Made by a program: the position numbers and the translations under genes
In this document: positions 38,940 to 47,459 of the stretch, one piece after another
Layout of the letters: the number at the start of each line of letters is the position of its first letter
Position numbering within the stretch: position 1 is the first letter of the stretch
Assembly: GCF_000022485.1 (NCBI RefSeq)
Contig: NC_012623.1
Location: 1,054,001-1,118,000 of the forward strand
DNA: 64,000 nt
DNA from: Sulfolobus islandicus Y.N.15.51
Lineage (GTDB): Archaea; Thermoproteota; Thermoprotei_A; Sulfolobales; Sulfolobaceae
Reading direction: 5' to 3'
The notes under the pieces: generated by a model
Databases searched by the model: none
Told to the model about the DNA's origin: nothing
What the model saw: only the letters and a program-made list of their open reading frames with translations

Positions 38940-39013
38940 ACGTCCTCATAAAATAAGTAAAGGGTGAAATTTAAAGTTTTTTGGACAAAGGTCTTGAATT
39001 TATCTCATGCTAT

Positions 39014-39043
39014 CGCGGGGATTTGAACCCCGGACAACCGGAT
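39014..39043 (-). other. Attachment-site remnant: partial tRNA-Met 3' half
   Basis: Thirty bases are identical to the 3' half of the tRNA-Met gene at 47367-47458 (anticodon-stem 3' side, variable loop, T arm and start of acceptor). No 5' half is present. The flanking sequence (tctaaaaaattaaatt, then an inverted repeat ATTAAAT/ATTTAAT) is related to that next to the copy at 41468. Interpreted as an att site left by integration. Confidence 0.65.
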
Positions 39044-39524
39044 CTCTAAAAAATTAAATTAATAGTTTCGATTTAATGCCTTTACGTTAAAGAGTTTTTT
39101 CATTCCAATACTATAATTTTAGATTAATTATTAGATGAAAGAATCTACATAATATGAGACGTTAGACCCTAAAATACCTCAATTACCTTGCAAACTCTCC
39201 TCCTTTTTAGCGTATAAATTCTGAACTTCTTACCATAATATTCTATCTATAAACTGAATATTATTTCCTGTTTGATTTTAGAAAATTTTGCTAAAAAAGA
39301 TTTTTGTCGCATTCAAGCTTTTACATTAAATAATCGTATAGTATACTAACTTTTTCCAGCTAATATTGCTATTATCGTCTCATAACACTTATTTCCCTAA
39401 GTGAAAGCACATTTTAATCTTTTAAATACTAAAAGGACAAGCACGTCTCTAGTTCAAAAATTTGAAACAATAGAGTGCAGCAGATAAAGTTATAGTTCTA
39501 CAAGTTTATATTTAATTTGAGAGC
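39044..39524. other. Gene-free AT-rich stretch
   Basis: About 480 bp next to the att remnant. Apart from the att-flanking inverted repeat at its left end and a tttatattta promoter-like element at its right end, I see no gene or clear structure. Confidence 0.5.
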
Positions 39525-39693: not shown

Positions 39694-40116
39694 ATGGGTA
39701 AAGAAATAGAGATCCCTTTTATTAACGCCGAAGGTTACTCAGTACCTTTAATAAAAGTAAGGATGGAGTGCCCTAAGTCTGGGGAAGATGTTTTGATATA
39801 CGCATTACCAGATAGCGGTAGTAGATTTTCTTTAATAAATAGGAGAACGTTAAACGAGTGTTTTGATAATCTAGAAGATCATTACTTTGATATCATTATA
39901 TTAACCAATCTAAATTTACATGCAAAAAGGTACAAATTAAAATTTCATTTCGTAGAGCTAAATGAAAATTTTGAAATACCAGTTGCAATAGCCGATTTCG
40001 GCGTTTATGAAGGAGTTTTTCCAAGCCTTATTTTAGGTAGGGAAGATTTCTTTTCAAGAACGATGATATGCTTTGACAGGGACATAAGATTAATTATTAA
40101 GGCTGATAGTCTTTAA
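39694..40116 (+). CDS. Retropepsin-like aspartic protease-fold protein
   Basis: 140-aa beta-rich protein. YALPDSGSRFSLINRRTL contains the D-(S/T)-G-S catalytic loop followed by the typical S-L-I strand, and FPSLILGREDFFS corresponds to the ILGRDFL flap/dimer motif of retropepsin and Ddi1-type proteases. A homodimer would provide the second Asp. No membrane segment. It is translationally linked to the preceding 55-aa ORF. Substrate and biological role unknown; location inside an integrated element suggests an accessory function. Confidence 0.6.
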   Translation: MGKEIEIPFINAEGYSVPLIKVRMECPKSGEDVLIYALPDSGSRFSLINRRTLNECFDNLEDHYFDIIILTNLNLHAKRYKLKFHFVELNENFEIPVAIADFGVYEGVFPSLILGREDFFSRTMICFDRDIRLIIKADSL

Positions 40117-41015: not shown

Positions 41016-41175
41016 ATAATATAAGTTAAACTAATGTCTAAAGAGTTTAACCATTAACCGAGAGGAGTATAGCACTACGAATAGTTTAAAGAATTATGAG
41101 GATTGTTGCTGAAGTAGATTCTGAAGAAGATATTGATAGGAGTACGTCTAACAATTTCAATTAGATATAGTTGCT

Positions 41176-41358
41176 ATGGTGTATTTGCAAAACAGTGTAG
41201 CTTATGACAACAAGGATTTGTACTTGAGGGCTAAGGAGTATCTGGCAAGGGCTGAGGAGGCTATGGATGGGAAGAGTGTAAGCTTTGAGACTAAAATGTG
41301 GGTTGACAGTTTAAGGAGTAAGATCGAGACATATAAGAATCGTTTCGGAGAAAGATAA
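41176..41358 (+). CDS. Hypothetical short ORF (60 aa)
   Basis: Helical, charged peptide MVYLQNSVAYDNKDLYLRAK with AKEYLARAEEAMDG following. No family is recognised; the helix pattern is faintly like HEPN/PaREP1-type small proteins. A short in-frame-independent ORF (ATG at 41096) precedes it. It may be the remnant of a larger element gene. Confidence 0.35.
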   Translation: MVYLQNSVAYDNKDLYLRAKEYLARAEEAMDGKSVSFETKMWVDSLRSKIETYKNRFGER

Positions 41359-41467
41359 AAGCTTAAACTTATACGATGTTATTAATGTTGTTGTAAAATC
41401 CTTACTCTTTTGGTAGTTATTCTTATCGAGAAAACTGTCCGAAATTATTCGCAAATGTAGTTAAGGT

Positions 41468-41536
41468 GCCGCCGCGGGACTTGAACCCCGGACAACCGGG
41501 TGTCTAAAACGTTAAATTGGCCGTTTCAATTTAACG
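41468..41536 (-). other. Attachment-site remnant: partial tRNA 3' half plus inverted repeat
   Basis: Bases 41468-41500 are nearly identical to the 3' end of the tRNA-Met gene at 47367, including the full acceptor 3' strand, but without a 5' half. A few positions differ, including one missing base in the T stem. Directly beyond it is a 10-bp inverted repeat CGTTAAATTG/CAATTTAACG with a 7-bp loop (41510-41536), related to the flank of the copy at 39014. It probably marks the far end of the element integrated at tRNA-Met. Confidence 0.65.
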
Positions 41537-41822
41537 CGATTTGTTAAAGGCATAACAATATACGTTATTTTATTATTGCAATGAATATCTGATTTTCACA
41601 TCTACTGCGCATAACACGTTAAACCGTTAAACTCCTCAGTTAACGCATTTCAAAGTTCATCTCTATATAAGACAATACTCTCTTATCTTATACTTTGTCA
41701 GACCTTAAAGGGCAAGATTTATGTTTCATGAGTAATACTAAATTGTATGCCGAAATCTAGAATGCATGTATAAGTCTCAACAAGAAACAAGAGGAAGAGA
41801 GGAGAATTAGCGTATAAAAGAC
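41537..41822. other. Gene-free AT-rich stretch beside att remnant
   Basis: About 285 bp with no supported gene. The last 90 bp may be the degenerate 5' end of the IS630-type transposase that follows. Confidence 0.45.
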
Positions 41823-42200
41823 GTGAAGAACGATATGAGAATAAAGGACGTGGTCAAGAAGTATAATGTCTCCGTCTTTACCGTGTGCAAACAGTTAAGA
41901 AAAGATGACTGGAGCGCTAAGCCGAGGGAGGGACCCACGAAACTGAAGGAAGAGAAAAAGCTCGTCCAAATCTTAGAAAAGAGTCCAAGAGATTTCGGCT
42001 TGAACTACGACTTCTGGACCTTGAAGCTCATAGCCTATATACTTAAGAAGTAATATGGAATGAAATACAACCCAAGGAGTTTAAGCCCAGTCCCCAAGAA
42101 GTTGGGCTTCAAGTATAAGAAAGGAAAAAAGGACTTACGTGAGAGACAAGAGGACAGTAAAAGATGGGTGAAGGAACAAGGGGAGAAGCTTTTATAACTT
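41823..42200 (+). pseudogene. IS630-family transposase remnant
   Basis: The frame from ATG 41823 gives a helix-turn-helix (KYNVSVFTVCKQLRKDDWSA) and the following ILEKSPRDFGLNYDFWTLKL, typical of the N-terminal region of Sulfolobus IS630 transposases. A stop at 42053 is followed in the same direction by more homologous-looking sequence (KYNPRSLSPVPKKLGFKYKK). The DDE domain is absent, so it is a broken copy. Confidence 0.6.
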
Positions 42201-42206
42201 GTCTGG

Positions 42207-42389
42207 TTGAAAGATCATACGGTTATCTCACCCGTTAATCCTAACGAATCGCTGCACTCTTCATTGAGGGATAGGCTCGTACGTTTTAAGAGGACTACTA
42301 AGACAGTAAATAGGAGCATTAGTACCATGATGTACTACATAGTCCTAGTCTTGTGGGAGAGAATGTTAATTCCAGAATTTGTAGGTTAA
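42207..42389 (+). pseudogene. C-terminal fragment of an IS1-like transposase
   Basis: Sixty residues (VNPNESLHSSLRDRLVRFKR, then MYYIVLVLWERMLIPEF) match the style of the C-terminal end of Sulfolobus IS1-type transposases. The N-terminal part is missing. A matching N-terminal zinc-finger fragment lies at 46786-46930, on the other side of the QueC operon and the TnpB element. Confidence 0.5.
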
Positions 42390-42549
42390 TTACGACACTA
42401 TCTCCAGACTGTTGTAACTTCGGCAAAAATATATTATATAGAGTAAGATCGGAAAAAACTTAATATAATATACATTTTCTACATATTCCTCTATATTCTA
42501 AATACAGTATCTTTATTAAACATATATGAAATAATCTATCCAGGTAAAG

Positions 42550-43386
42550 ATGGAAATAAGTTCTAAAGTTGAATACATAATAGGGAAAAACTTAATACCC
42601 AAAATAAAGTTCATTGTTTCTAATATTGAGATAAAAATTGAAAATAGTGAGTTAGAAGATAAACAATTCAAAGATTTTCTAAAATCGTATTATAACTTTT
42701 ATGATAGTTCCAAGATAGATACCATTTTTATTATTGAAGTTAATTTAAATGATGAAACTTATAGAGGACTTGGCATTGGTTCATACGATACAAAGACTAA
42801 TATCTCGTCTCTCTATTTCGAGTGGGAATCATTAACTAAATATGAAGTGCAAGCTGCTAGTGGTGGCTCCATAATTTGCTGGGATTATTCTACTTATTCA
42901 AAAGCTTATCAAGGTGCGGTTAACATAAGTTCTGTCGCGGGAACATTAGAAGGTTTTCCATTAGAAGCAAATGTTACATATTTAACCCTAAACGACGAGG
43001 GTGAGATAGTATTCCAAGGATATCAGAAAGGTATAGTTAAGACTATTAACGGGGTACGAGTTGGTAAAGTTAAATTAGTTGGGTTTATTGATGAAAAATT
43101 CCGGTTGAATACTTCGCCGGGTTATGCAGTATATCTGACACAGAAAAATGACAATATAATATCTGGAGTTTATAATCAGATACAAGTAGACTCCATGGGT
43201 AGAATGTATTACGAGGCCGCCATTAGAGAATATAAAATATATGGTGGCAGAAAATTACCATTTGATGAGGTTATGATATTTAAATACAAAGATGCTAATT
43301 TCAATCAGATAAAGAATAATAAAAGAATAGATTCAATGTCACATATAGCATATTATATGCCGGCAAAAGACCCTTACGGGAAATAA
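42550..43386 (+). CDS. Unknown beta-rich protein, first gene of QueC-like operon
   Basis: 278 aa, no family recognised. Predicted mostly beta-strand (GLGIGSYDTKTNISSLYFEW, GKVKLVGFIDEKFRLN), with a central GGSIICWDYSTYSKAYQG stretch and the tail MPAKDPYGK. There is no signal peptide, membrane helix or catalytic motif that I know. A TATA-like element about 26 bp upstream (catatatgaa) predicts a leaderless start at ATG 42550. It is separated by 2 nt from the QueC-like gene, so the products should act together. AT-rich codon use resembles the host. Confidence 0.65.
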   Translation: MEISSKVEYIIGKNLIPKIKFIVSNIEIKIENSELEDKQFKDFLKSYYNFYDSSKIDTIFIIEVNLNDETYRGLGIGSYDTKTNISSLYFEWESLTKYEVQAASGGSIICWDYSTYSKAYQGAVNISSVAGTLEGFPLEANVTYLTLNDEGEIVFQGYQKGIVKTINGVRVGKVKLVGFIDEKFRLNTSPGYAVYLTQKNDNIISGVYNQIQVDSMGRMYYEAAIREYKIYGGRKLPFDEVMIFKYKDANFNQIKNNKRIDSMSHIAYYMPAKDPYGK

Positions 43387-43388
43387 TC

Positions 43389-44123
43389 ATGGTTGAGGAA
43401 GCTATTATTCAACTTACTGGAGGAATAGATTCCACAGTGTTAGCGTATTATCTTAAAGATAAATATGTGTTGCATGGAACTTTCATATATTACGGCTATC
43501 CTCCCCAGATAAGAGAATTAGAGTTAGTCAAAGAATTATCTAAAAAGCTCGATGTCCCTCTAAAGATTATTGATTTTTCCTCTTATATTAAGTCTTTCGA
43601 TCTCCCTCCAATAGATTCTATACAATATATAATTAAGTATCAGTTTGTGATAGAAATCCTAGCATCTTTTTCAGCTTATCCGAATCTAAATACCATGTTT
43701 GTGGGCTGGCTTAAGGATGAGTGGAGTAATAAAATGAGTATCTTAAAAGGTATTGAATCTCTTATGGGTTTTAAGGTTATGGCACCTTTTCACACAATGG
43801 TAAAAAGTGAAGTTATTAAGTTGGGTAATGAATTAGGCGTAGATTTTACAAAAACTCATAGTTGCATTGTATCTGGAAAAATGCATTGCGGCATATGTAT
43901 GCCGTGTAGATCTAGAAGAAGAGCTTTTGAAGAGGCAAAAGTTAAAGATCCCACCATCTACTACTTTAATTTGCCCCTTGCTGAGATAGATAAGTTATCA
44001 AGAGAACTAAGCCTGGAAGAGTTAGTAGAGAGGTATTTTAAGCCATTCTTGCAGTATACTGGAGAATATCCTAAAGACTTCGTGGATAACTTAGTCAACA
44101 TTTTGAAAAAATATAATGGATGA
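43389..44123 (+). CDS. QueC-like ATP-dependent deazaguanine nitrile synthase family enzyme
   Basis: 244 aa, full length for QueC. The PP-loop ATP site is LTGGIDSTVLAYYL (residues about 8-21, Thr replacing the usual Ser). The C-terminal zinc site is HSCIVSGKMHCGICMPCRSR, a C-x8-C-x2-C-x2-C arrangement as in QueC, which converts 7-carboxy-7-deazaguanine to preQ0. It might be the cell's archaeosine-pathway QueC, but no other que gene adjoins it. Being in a mobile region between an unknown protein and an MFS transporter, it may be a specialised paralogue. QueC homologues elsewhere have been recruited into defence systems and natural-product clusters. Confidence 0.8.
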   Translation: MVEEAIIQLTGGIDSTVLAYYLKDKYVLHGTFIYYGYPPQIRELELVKELSKKLDVPLKIIDFSSYIKSFDLPPIDSIQYIIKYQFVIEILASFSAYPNLNTMFVGWLKDEWSNKMSILKGIESLMGFKVMAPFHTMVKSEVIKLGNELGVDFTKTHSCIVSGKMHCGICMPCRSRRRAFEEAKVKDPTIYYFNLPLAEIDKLSRELSLEELVERYFKPFLQYTGEYPKDFVDNLVNILKKYNG

Positions 44124-44129
44124 ATCTAA

Positions 44130-45203
44130 ATGAAGAATTATTACTTAGCATATAAGTCAATTATCTCATTTTTCATAGGTTTCATGAGTTTTGCGTTCCT
44201 AGCTTTAATGAAAATATCAGGCTTAAATGACTTTCAAATAGGGTTAATATTAAGTACTATATCAATATCTCAGTTTATCACATACATTATTCTGGTGTCT
44301 TTCTCGATAAAGAGGAATCTCTTGGTCTCAGCGGCATTAGAACTTCTTATACTAATAATCTTAATTATCCAAAGATCCTTCCTTACTTTCACCCTCTCTG
44401 CAATTTTTATGGGTATCTCCAACTCTATAAATTCCTCAGTTATAATACTTCAAAAAGGATTTACGAGAAAGGATTATTCAATAATGATGACCTTAACTTA
44501 CACCCTCAGCTTAGCAGGATTAGGAATATTCTACTTAAGTAGAATAATAGGGATAAAAATTCTCCTCATATTATTTATTCCTCTATTGTTTGCAAACCTA
44601 GTATTATCATCAATGCTTAGATATGAAGAGAATAAAGAGAGTTTATCGGAACTCTACTCTTGGTTAAAAAACGTCGGGAAGTTAGTTTTATTCTTTGGCT
44701 TCTTTGCAAGTTTAAGAAGAGTTGCAATCACAAGTTATATACCTTTAATTCTGCTTACAGTATTTTATACATATACCCCGCAGGAAATAAGTTTATACCT
44801 CATGATAATTCAAGTTCCTCTAATTATTTTCGTTTATATAGCCCATAAAATAAGTGAGAAAGTTTTCATAATATTGTGTATAGCAGAATTAATTCTTTTC
44901 TTATCACTTTCTATGTTTTACCGGGAATCGATATTTCTCTTCTTATCCCTAATACTCTTAGCCAACATATCCTCATCCTTAAGGGCACCAGTCGTTGAAG
45001 AAACAGTAGTCAAATTGTTAAATTTTAGCACAAAAATTTCTTCATTTTACCACTTGATGGATACTATCTTCTCAGCGTTAGCGTCAATCTTACTTGCATT
45101 TATCGTAAAACTGGATTTGTTTTATGGAATTTTTATAATAGCAGGGTTATCTTCACTCTTGCCGTCTTTGTTTGTATACAAGGTTATAGTAGAAAGGAAA
45201 TAG
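44130..45203 (+). CDS. MFS-type transporter, third gene of QueC-like operon
   Basis: 357-aa protein with about ten to twelve membrane helices in two halves (first LAYKSIISFFIGFMSFAFLA, second half starting near NVGKLVLFFGFFASLRRV). The arrangement and basic loop after helix pairs suggest the major facilitator superfamily. Six nucleotides separate it from the QueC-like gene. It could export a product made by the two upstream genes or import a precursor. It is shorter than typical MFS proteins (about 400 aa). Confidence 0.75.
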   Translation: MKNYYLAYKSIISFFIGFMSFAFLALMKISGLNDFQIGLILSTISISQFITYIILVSFSIKRNLLVSAALELLILIILIIQRSFLTFTLSAIFMGISNSINSSVIILQKGFTRKDYSIMMTLTYTLSLAGLGIFYLSRIIGIKILLILFIPLLFANLVLSSMLRYEENKESLSELYSWLKNVGKLVLFFGFFASLRRVAITSYIPLILLTVFYTYTPQEISLYLMIIQVPLIIFVYIAHKISEKVFIILCIAELILFLSLSMFYRESIFLFLSLILLANISSSLRAPVVEETVVKLLNFSTKISSFYHLMDTIFSALASILLAFIVKLDLFYGIFIIAGLSSLLPSLFVYKVIVERK

Positions 45204-45567
45204 TAAATAATGTAGTGTTTAATATATCTTGAATTACTTATTGAGTCAGTGTGAGCATAGTGCAGTCATTAAGCTATGTATATTTTGTATAACCAGAATT
45301 ATTTATGAGCAGAAGGCTTGCAATTAGAGTTCAGCCTTCATCGTGACTAATAGTCACTTTTCGTGACTATTAATCACTTAGCCTCATCACTCCTTCTCCC
45401 TCCCCATGCCGTCTACGGGAGCGGTAGTTAAACCACTCCCTTCAAGGACATGGGGAGTTTCATCGTGTGCCTTCCTCCACCTCGCGACTGCTCATAGACT
45501 TCATAGTGGCACCCTCCAAATTAATGTTAGCATAAAAGTTTATAAATTTTTCCGCTACTTACAACAT
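45204..45567. other. Gene-free region with hairpins, left end of TnpB element
   Basis: About 360 bp. At 45348-45372 there is a 10-bp inverted repeat TAATAGTCAC/GTGACTATTA with a 5-bp loop, partly overlapping the imperfect palindrome GTGACTAATAGTCAC (45343-45357). Subterminal hairpins of this type are usual for IS200/IS605-class elements. The rest, including a GC-rich stretch around 45390-45500, shows no convincing gene. Confidence 0.45.
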
Positions 45568-45732
45568 ATGGAGCAGATAGTTTTCAGAGGTGTCATATCC
45601 TCAGCTGGTAGTGATAAGTATGGTGAGAAGAGGTATGCAATATACATCCCTAAGAGCGTGAAAGAGAAGGCTGGGAAAATTGCTGGAAAGGAGGTGATAG
45701 TAATTGTCATCCTACCAGATGATGAGGAGTAA
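45568..45732 (+). CDS. Small AbrB-like protein of TnpB element
   Basis: 54 aa from ATG 45568, MEQIVFRGVISSAGSDKYGE, with YAIYIPKSVKEKAGKIAGKE following: a SpoVT/AbrB-type DNA-binding hairpin. The longer frame from 45406 runs through GC-rich sequence that does not resemble the family. Its end overlaps the start of the TnpB-like gene by 29 nt. In some Sulfolobus elements (ISC1316 type, from memory) such a small ORF precedes tnpB; it may regulate transposition. Confidence 0.65.
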   Translation: MEQIVFRGVISSAGSDKYGEKRYAIYIPKSVKEKAGKIAGKEVIVIVILPDDEE

Positions 45733-46774
45733 ATTAATTGGCTCTAAGGAAGCAATTGATAACTTCCAATTCGTGACTATAAATGGTAGGGTTGAGTTTG
45801 AAGACGTTGAAAGAATCTCAAGAATTGCTTATTATTACTCAAAGGCTGTGAAGGCTGGGATTGACTTGGCTTTAAAAGGAGTTTCATTAAATGATGCTGT
45901 TAAGGAGTTGTATAATATCATCCCTTACGCTTTTTATGCAGAGACTGCTTATAAGCAGGCTTTAGCTCTTGTTAATGGTAATAAGGTTGAGATTAAAAAG
46001 AGATGGATCGCTTGTAGGGGTAACAAAAGCGATAATGGTAATAGGGGGATTAAGTTTCACGTTTTGGAAGACCACGTGGAAATTAAAGTTAAAGACCTAT
46101 GGGGTAAGTGGGTTCACGGGAAGGCGTACTTCGGCAAGGAGTACTTACCATTACTTTCTGAGCTAGAGGAGTTATCTCGAAGGAAGGAGGAGGGTTACGG
46201 TGCTGTAGTAAGTTTCAAGCATTACCCCATGATCCACCTCCAAATCCCACTCTGGTTGTACTTAAAGCACTTCTCTTCACCAAAACCTGTGGGTTACGGT
46301 TTGGTTGCTGGTTTTGATTTGAACAGTGATAGGTTGAACGTTGTTGTAGTTAATAAGGATGGTAAAGTTATTGCCATTAAGACTTTTTGGTATTCAGATG
46401 TTACTAGACCAGGTTTTCCTAAAGGGAAAGCTATGGCTTTGCGTTTGAATGCTCTTTCACAAGCTCTTAATTTCCTATCAAGGGTTGGTGTTGATTACGT
46501 TGCTTTTGAGGACTTGTTCCTAGTTAAGAAGAGGAGATTCACTAGGAGTAAGAGCGGTAATAGGAAGGTTTCACGTTTCGCTAAGAGGCAAATGTTAACT
46601 CACGGTGTTATTAAAGCACTTAGGTTGGGTTTCGACGTTGTGTTAGTTAATCCTAAGGGTACTACAAATTCTGAGGGTCACGATAGGATAATGAGGGAGA
46701 AGGGTTTCGATAGGCATACAGCCTCAGCTTACTTAATAGCATTAAAGGGATTAGAAGTAATTAAAAATAACTAA
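45704..46774 (+). CDS. TnpB-like RNA-guided nuclease of an IS605-class element, zinc ribbon absent
   Basis: 356 aa. The RuvC-like nuclease core is present: first Asp in GFDLNSDRLN, Glu in VAFEDLFL, and last Asp in GFDRHTASAYLIA. The usual CxxC...CxxC zinc ribbon between the last two motifs is missing; the corresponding region reads VVLVNPKGTTNSEGHDRI and has no Cys. TnpB proteins use an RNA from the transposon right end to cut DNA. No tnpA gene is nearby, so the element would depend on a TnpA in trans. Resembles ISC1316-type TnpB. Confidence 0.78.
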   Translation: MSSYQMMRSKLIGSKEAIDNFQFVTINGRVEFEDVERISRIAYYYSKAVKAGIDLALKGVSLNDAVKELYNIIPYAFYAETAYKQALALVNGNKVEIKKRWIACRGNKSDNGNRGIKFHVLEDHVEIKVKDLWGKWVHGKAYFGKEYLPLLSELEELSRRKEEGYGAVVSFKHYPMIHLQIPLWLYLKHFSSPKPVGYGLVAGFDLNSDRLNVVVVNKDGKVIAIKTFWYSDVTRPGFPKGKAMALRLNALSQALNFLSRVGVDYVAFEDLFLVKKRRFTRSKSGNRKVSRFAKRQMLTHGVIKALRLGFDVVLVNPKGTTNSEGHDRIMREKGFDRHTASAYLIALKGLEVIKNN

Positions 46775-47004: not shown

Positions 47005-47366
47005 ACCTCAGGCTTTCGTGAGATATTAATATAACTCTTCTCTGCTTGACTTAACAATACTGATATCTTTCATTTTCATATTGCAGTCCTCTGGAGTCAA
47101 TAGAAAGAATGGAATTCCTTCCAGACTATAGTTACCTCGTTTATCCTTCTTTGTCTGATAAGCTCTTCTCCAGTGTCCTCTCTAAGATTTTGATCTTCTG
47201 ATACTCCGTCAGCCCGAAAATGTCTATTATTCCTACCCCTCTTCTAATAAATACGTCAGAGACCTAATTGATATTATGCGTTTCCAGTTTCTTCCTCAGA
47301 CGTTTCCAATCATACTCCCTCATAAGAACGTAAATCTCTTTCAATTTATGATAAAGATTAGGGAGA
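47005..47366. other. Region without intact genes; decayed minus-strand ORF
   Basis: About 360 bp next to the att side of tRNA-Met. On the minus strand a frame from about 47345 to 47155 reads KLKEIYVLMREYDWKRLRKK, is interrupted by one TAG, and continues VFIRRGVGIIDIFGLTEYQK before TAA. It has real coding character and may be the remnant of an element gene adjacent to the attachment site, but no family is recognised. Confidence 0.4.

Positions 47367-47459
<93 letters not shown>

Follow-up and report, generated by a model that had tools for sequence, protein, structure and literature searches.

Members of the QueC family have been co-opted for defence and for other kinds of chemistry. The locus analyzed here raises the question of what a QueC-like enzyme does in an archaeal operon that lies apart from the deazaguanine pathway genes. 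The operon occupies positions 42550-45203 of a 64,000-nucleotide stretch of the Sulfolobus islandicus Y.N.15.51 genome (the window) and consists of three plus-strand genes. The first (42550-43386) encodes an orphan protein of 278 amino acids, the second (43389-44123) a QueC-like PP-loop protein of 244 amino acids, and the third (44130-45203) a transporter of 357 amino acids with a predicted major facilitator superfamily (MFS) fold. A preliminary description of the window had reported this head-to-tail arrangement with 2 and 6 nt between the genes, and the open reading frames are present as claimed. We infer that the three genes are co-transcribed. The arrangement is more than chance, since a 4.2-kb stretch with the operon has a counterpart of 93% DNA identity in another genus and since dN/dS values of 0.08-0.28 for the QueC-like and MFS genes indicate purifying selection.

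The second gene product is clearly a member of the QueC superfamily, as it scores 79.7 bits with the Pfam QueC family (PF06508), for which the cut-off is 22. It forms a clade with orthologues in four other Sulfolobaceae genomes, and the clade was thus found in five of the 31 genomes of the family: that of the window, G136 (same genus), and G066, G090 and G096 (other genera). The PP-loop TGGIDST (residues 10-16; 43416-43436, plus strand) and the complete zinc site CX7CXXCXXC (residues 159-173; 43863-43907, plus strand), both pointed out in the preliminary description, are common to all five orthologues, the PP-loop being invariant except for an I/L exchange. The QueC domain begins at residue 3, and no glutamine amidotransferase domain is fused to it as in GAT-QueC. 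The score against the equivalog profile of canonical QueC (TIGR00364), however, is only 60.3 bits (67.4 for the G096 orthologue), far below the cut-off of 150.3.

Mutational analysis of E. coli QueC identified four essential residues, Y35, R99, Y131, and Y189 (Libby et al. 2026, PMC13329287). The five clade members were aligned with canonical, GAT-, phage, and Streptomyces QueC using E. coli residue numbering. Like canonical QueC, all five retain Y35, the PP-loop, a conserved lysine, and the four cysteines. Unlike canonical QueC, they have K-Y or K-H in place of R99-N100, lack the YPDC motif, and carry isoleucine at the position of Y189. Y35 is thus the only one of the four essential residues retained throughout the clade, whereas R99, Y131, and Y189 are retained by GAT-QueC, QueT-linked QueC, phage QueC, and most of the other QueC proteins compared. 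A further difference is a C-terminal extension of about 45 amino acids (43983-44120, plus strand), which reaches past the end of the other aligned QueC proteins and persists also in the genomes without the 278-aa gene. In the phylogenetic tree, the clade is supported at 100/100 and sits on a long stem of 1.46 changes per site, and long branches meet near its sister node. The best PDB match of the family profile is Cap9 of type IV CBASS (9nto, E 3.1e-9), and similarity to ThiI-type proteins is weak. Libby et al. (2026, PMC13329287) mention archaeal QueC clusters 7, 8, and 10 but leave them unanalysed. The present clade should probably not be annotated as "7-cyano-7-deazaguanine synthase".

If the operon held the only QueC of the genome together with a known component of the archaeosine pathway, it would simply be housekeeping, as the preliminary description had remarked. 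Instead, the search for a second QueC that it had proposed found a GAT-QueC of 464 amino acids elsewhere in the 2.85-Mb genome (G000:C1:631608), with a TIGR00364 score of 163.9 bits, above the cut-off. GAT-QueC is a known crenarchaeal archaeosine enzyme (PMC5485725). It shares the QueC domain with the operon enzyme but also has the amidotransferase domain and retains the VPARN, YPDN, and CY motifs. The genome also carries one QueD-type (PF01242) and one TGT gene, and all of these lie far from the operon; canonical pathway genes are not found near it. A role as the housekeeping QueC is rejected because these genes are located elsewhere and the essential residues are lost. The enzyme might still serve as a spare preQ0 synthase for archaeosine, in keeping with its above-cut-off Pfam match. 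This is highly improbable, given the GAT-QueC already present, the lost residues, the TIGR00364 score of 60 versus 150 bits, and the same-genus genomes G050 and G146, which match GAT-QueC and no other QueC.

The third gene had been described as an MFS transporter. The proteins of the window, G090, and G096 all lack a Pfam match. The predicted fold nevertheless agrees with the description. The AlphaFold2 model is all-helical and has 198 PDB matches at E <= 0.001; the best 50 of these 198 are nearly all MFS proteins, with TM scores of 0.53-0.66, and matches include NorA, MdfA, VMAT2, and SPNS2 at E values of about 1e-5 and TM scores of 0.55-0.66. We assign a predicted twelve-helix MFS fold to this protein with moderate confidence, because the pLDDT of the model is 67. 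The MFS gene lies directly 3' of the QueC-like gene in all five genomes that carry the latter. The transporter itself is more widespread, being intact in seven and fragmentary in one of the 31 family genomes. Two Sulfurisphaera-like genomes of one genus, G131 and G119, have it without the QueC-like gene; therefore, the transporter does not need the enzyme.

The first gene is less constant. Searches of Pfam, NCBIfam, PADLOC, and the PDB gave no significant match for its product, and plasmids and phages had none either. The preliminary description had called the protein unrecognised and beta-rich; the label of "beta-rich" is not established, as the structure model has a pLDDT of 28. The gene is intact in three of the five genomes, and the G136 and G066 proteins are 94-95% identical to that of the window. 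In G090, the first approximately 80 codons remain together with the last approximately 16 in another frame, which we read as a relic, and G096 has no trace of the gene. The dN/dS values of 0.23-0.50, which come from few changes, suggest that the protein still works where it is intact. In the comparisons with G090, where only the relic is left, dN/dS is 0.08-0.11 for the QueC-like gene and 0.15-0.20 for the MFS gene. The pairing of the enzyme with the 278-aa protein, on which the preliminary description had built its proposal, is therefore doubtful as an obligatory partnership, since the enzyme and transporter persist without it. The stable unit is the QueC-like enzyme plus the transporter, and the 278-aa protein is accessory to it and not central, because its gene is intact in three genomes, decayed in one, and absent in one.

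This distribution bears on defence. For a QueC-family enzyme accompanied by an orphan protein, QatBC (PMC13279940, PMC13329287) is the strongest precedent. In a QatBC- or Cap9-like system, the enzyme would modify the 278-aa protein with a deazaguanine or a similar group. An orphan protein does adjoin a QueC-family enzyme on a mobile islet here, and the enzyme resembles QatC in having a QueC scaffold without the QueC motifs, a C-terminal extension, and profile similarity around the zinc site. That similarity amounts to 25.7 bits, however, against a QatC equivalog cut-off of 280, and the N-terminal domain of QatC is missing. QatB and CD-NTase require Gly2, and the partner in QatBC needs an N-terminal Met-Gly motif (PMC13279940). 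The 278-aa protein begins with MEISS instead of MG in all three intact copies and has been lost from G090 and G096, where the enzyme is retained. The constant partner is the transporter, which takes the place of QatA and QatD; neither of their genes is in the operon. As for Cap9, the best PDB match of the family profile, it retains the QueC signature (RN, YxDC) and has a CD-NTase partner. The clade has lost this signature, and PADLOC and Pfam found no CD-NTase among the three operon proteins. The preliminary description had noted that the gene set matches no known Qat or CBASS system, and comparison with NCBIfam and PADLOC bears this out. Membership in either system is rejected by profile cut-offs, gene content, and the missing N-terminal glycine, and we consider protein modification of this type improbable.

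The ATP and zinc sites are intact and the deazaguanine residues are gone, which is most simply read as related chemistry with a different substrate. In this enzyme group, which includes QueC, GMP synthase, NAD synthase, Cap9, and ThiI, a substrate oxygen is adenylated and ammonia, an amine, or sulfur then attacks. Our preferred reading is a horizontally moved operon in which the stable core consists of an MFS transporter and a PP-loop enzyme of the QueC family; the substrate pocket of the enzyme, as judged from the alignment, is changed, and the pair would handle a small molecule other than 7-carboxy-7-deazaguanine (CDG). We give this reading about an even chance. The enzyme would use ATP to adenylate a carboxylate or similar group of that molecule, and ammonia or another nucleophile would then attack the adenylated group. 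The transporter would import the molecule or export the product, the direction being a guess, and the 278-aa protein would act as an accessory. Both the QueC-type chemistry and the small-molecule nature of the substrate are inferred.

The preliminary description had suggested a deazaguanine-type product, which is doubtful since three of the four essential QueC residues are gone in all five clade members. It could nevertheless be that CDG or a close relative is the substrate and is accommodated by the diverged pocket of the enzyme, with the transporter importing a precursor or exporting the product. The enzyme is of QueC ancestry, and CDG is likely available because the genome has QueD-type, GAT-QueC, and TGT genes. 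MFS proteins can carry preQ0, and QueT transporter genes adjoin canonical QueC genes in other Thermoproteota. The QueC of these QueT pairs, however, is canonical (TIGR00364 195 bits), retains R99, Y131, and Y189, and is paired with QueT (PF06177) instead of an MFS protein. The loss of the three residues argues against a deazaguanine substrate, although the argument is tempered by QatC, which has a deazaguanine role despite losing the same motifs. On balance, this is unlikely but deserves more weight than a defence role. The QueT gene lies directly beside canonical QueC in three Thermoproteota genomes (L070:7020-8155, L071:7261-8467, and L072:4443-5623).

For a substrate other than CDG, our best guess is a nucleobase- or nucleoside-like compound that would be taken up and processed. 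Three hints lead towards nucleobase-like compounds, though none is strong. In G090, the neighbors of the operon copy include urease, xanthine-dehydrogenase-like, and amidohydrolase genes. G096, G131, and G119 each have a single PF04185 phosphoesterase gene, and the transporter gene lies no more than approximately 3.1 kb away from it; this counts as at most two independent observations because G131 and G119 belong to the same genus. In Bartonella, an MFS protein is known to transport preQ0 and preQ1 (PMC11130926). These hints come from few genomes, and the copies in the window, G136, and G066 have no nucleobase-catabolism context. With a little less confidence than in the general reading, we propose that the clade is an undescribed branch of the QueC superfamily that abandoned carboxy-deazaguanine, adopted a new substrate with a dedicated MFS transporter, and spreads among Sulfolobaceae genera as a small tRNA-associated cassette. 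If true, this would be a natural QueC in which the ATP and zinc machinery persists while residues essential for preQ0 formation are lost, and its tie to a transporter would show other uses of the fold. The operon also offers a testable archaeal enzyme-transporter pair.

Divergent QueC-like proteins occur elsewhere. The best plasmid match of the enzyme, with 31% identity, is encoded on the Bacillus glycinifermentans plasmid NZ_MF996511 (L069:13535-14203). It has lost the same three residues, and MFS genes lie within a few kb of it, in two MFS/TPR gene sets. Unlike the operon enzyme, it is bacterial and lacks such a C-terminal extension, its MFS genes are not adjacent, a HIT-domain gene is nearby, and its placement in the tree is unsure. 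A second divergent clade, of proteins with approximately 200 amino acids and TIGR00364 scores of 90 versus 150 bits, is found in other Sulfolobaceae (L039:8361-8969 and orthologues in L040-L048). Its genes adjoin TusA, GCV_H-like, and lipoate-ligase genes, and the proteins retain YGQ and HRN and lose YPDC and Y189. These enzymes may have been drawn from the QueC family into sulfur oxidation or lipoate metabolism. By analogy with these sulfur-oxidation clusters, the operon enzyme might be a sulfur- or lipoate-related PP-loop transferase, to which its weak ThiI-type similarity would also point. The two clades are separate, however, each with 100/100 support, the other clade keeps HRN and YGQ, and no sulfur gene lies beside the operon. 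We regard such a role, too, as improbable.

The reading of a mobile enzyme-transporter cassette agrees with its genomic setting. No close relatives of the QueC-like clade beyond the five genomes were detected in the rest of the phylum sample, plasmids, phages, or viral contigs; the viral contigs held no relatives of any operon protein, and the transporter had no plasmid match. A peptide-pattern search of GTDB contigs also returned no relatives of the operon proteins, but this search has limited sensitivity, as a whole-genome search does find the orthologues. Positions 41158-45328, which also take in a decayed transposase and an att-like fragment of a tRNA, match G066, a genome of a different genus, with 93% identity across 4.2 kb; the part shared with G136 is 41688-45210, likewise at 93% identity. 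The transposase remnant (about 41700-42400, plus strand) travels with the operon, being 90-95% identical beside it in G066 and G136. On the other side, there is a TnpB-related gene (45704-46774) that scores below curated cut-offs. The preliminary placement of the operon between IS fragments is thereby borne out. So are the tRNA att remnants: two fragments (39008-39046 and 41467-41499), which appear as direct repeat families D1 and D2, duplicate the 3' end of the intact tRNA at the right border (47365-47459, minus strand; Rfam tRNA 61.4 bits). Together with the IS remnants and the block common to other genomes, they mark the setting as an integrated, IS-rich islet, as had been described. ARAGORN labels the intact gene as tRNA-SeC, which looks wrong, since the G136 orthologue is called as an intron-containing tRNA-Met.

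Several neighboring features were recorded in addition. Genes for 140/143-aa, 134-aa, and 195-aa proteins near three of the copies were set aside as parts of the operon, because both the window and G066 have them in a separate inter-att segment. Two genes close to the G136 copy, one for a radical SAM/SPASM protein and one for an MFS_1 transporter, were likewise set aside, being absent beside the other copies; the two adjoin each other on the opposite strand (L035:3887-6172). Just upstream of the TnpB-related gene, Rfam finds an Sso133 sRNA (45400-45473, minus strand, 87 bits), possibly an IS-associated RNA. The 140-aa protein (39694-40116), of no assigned family, is encoded between the two att-like copies, and related proteins are encoded next to the operon in G136 and G066; the 140-aa protein carries a DSG motif that is reminiscent of retropepsin-like proteases.
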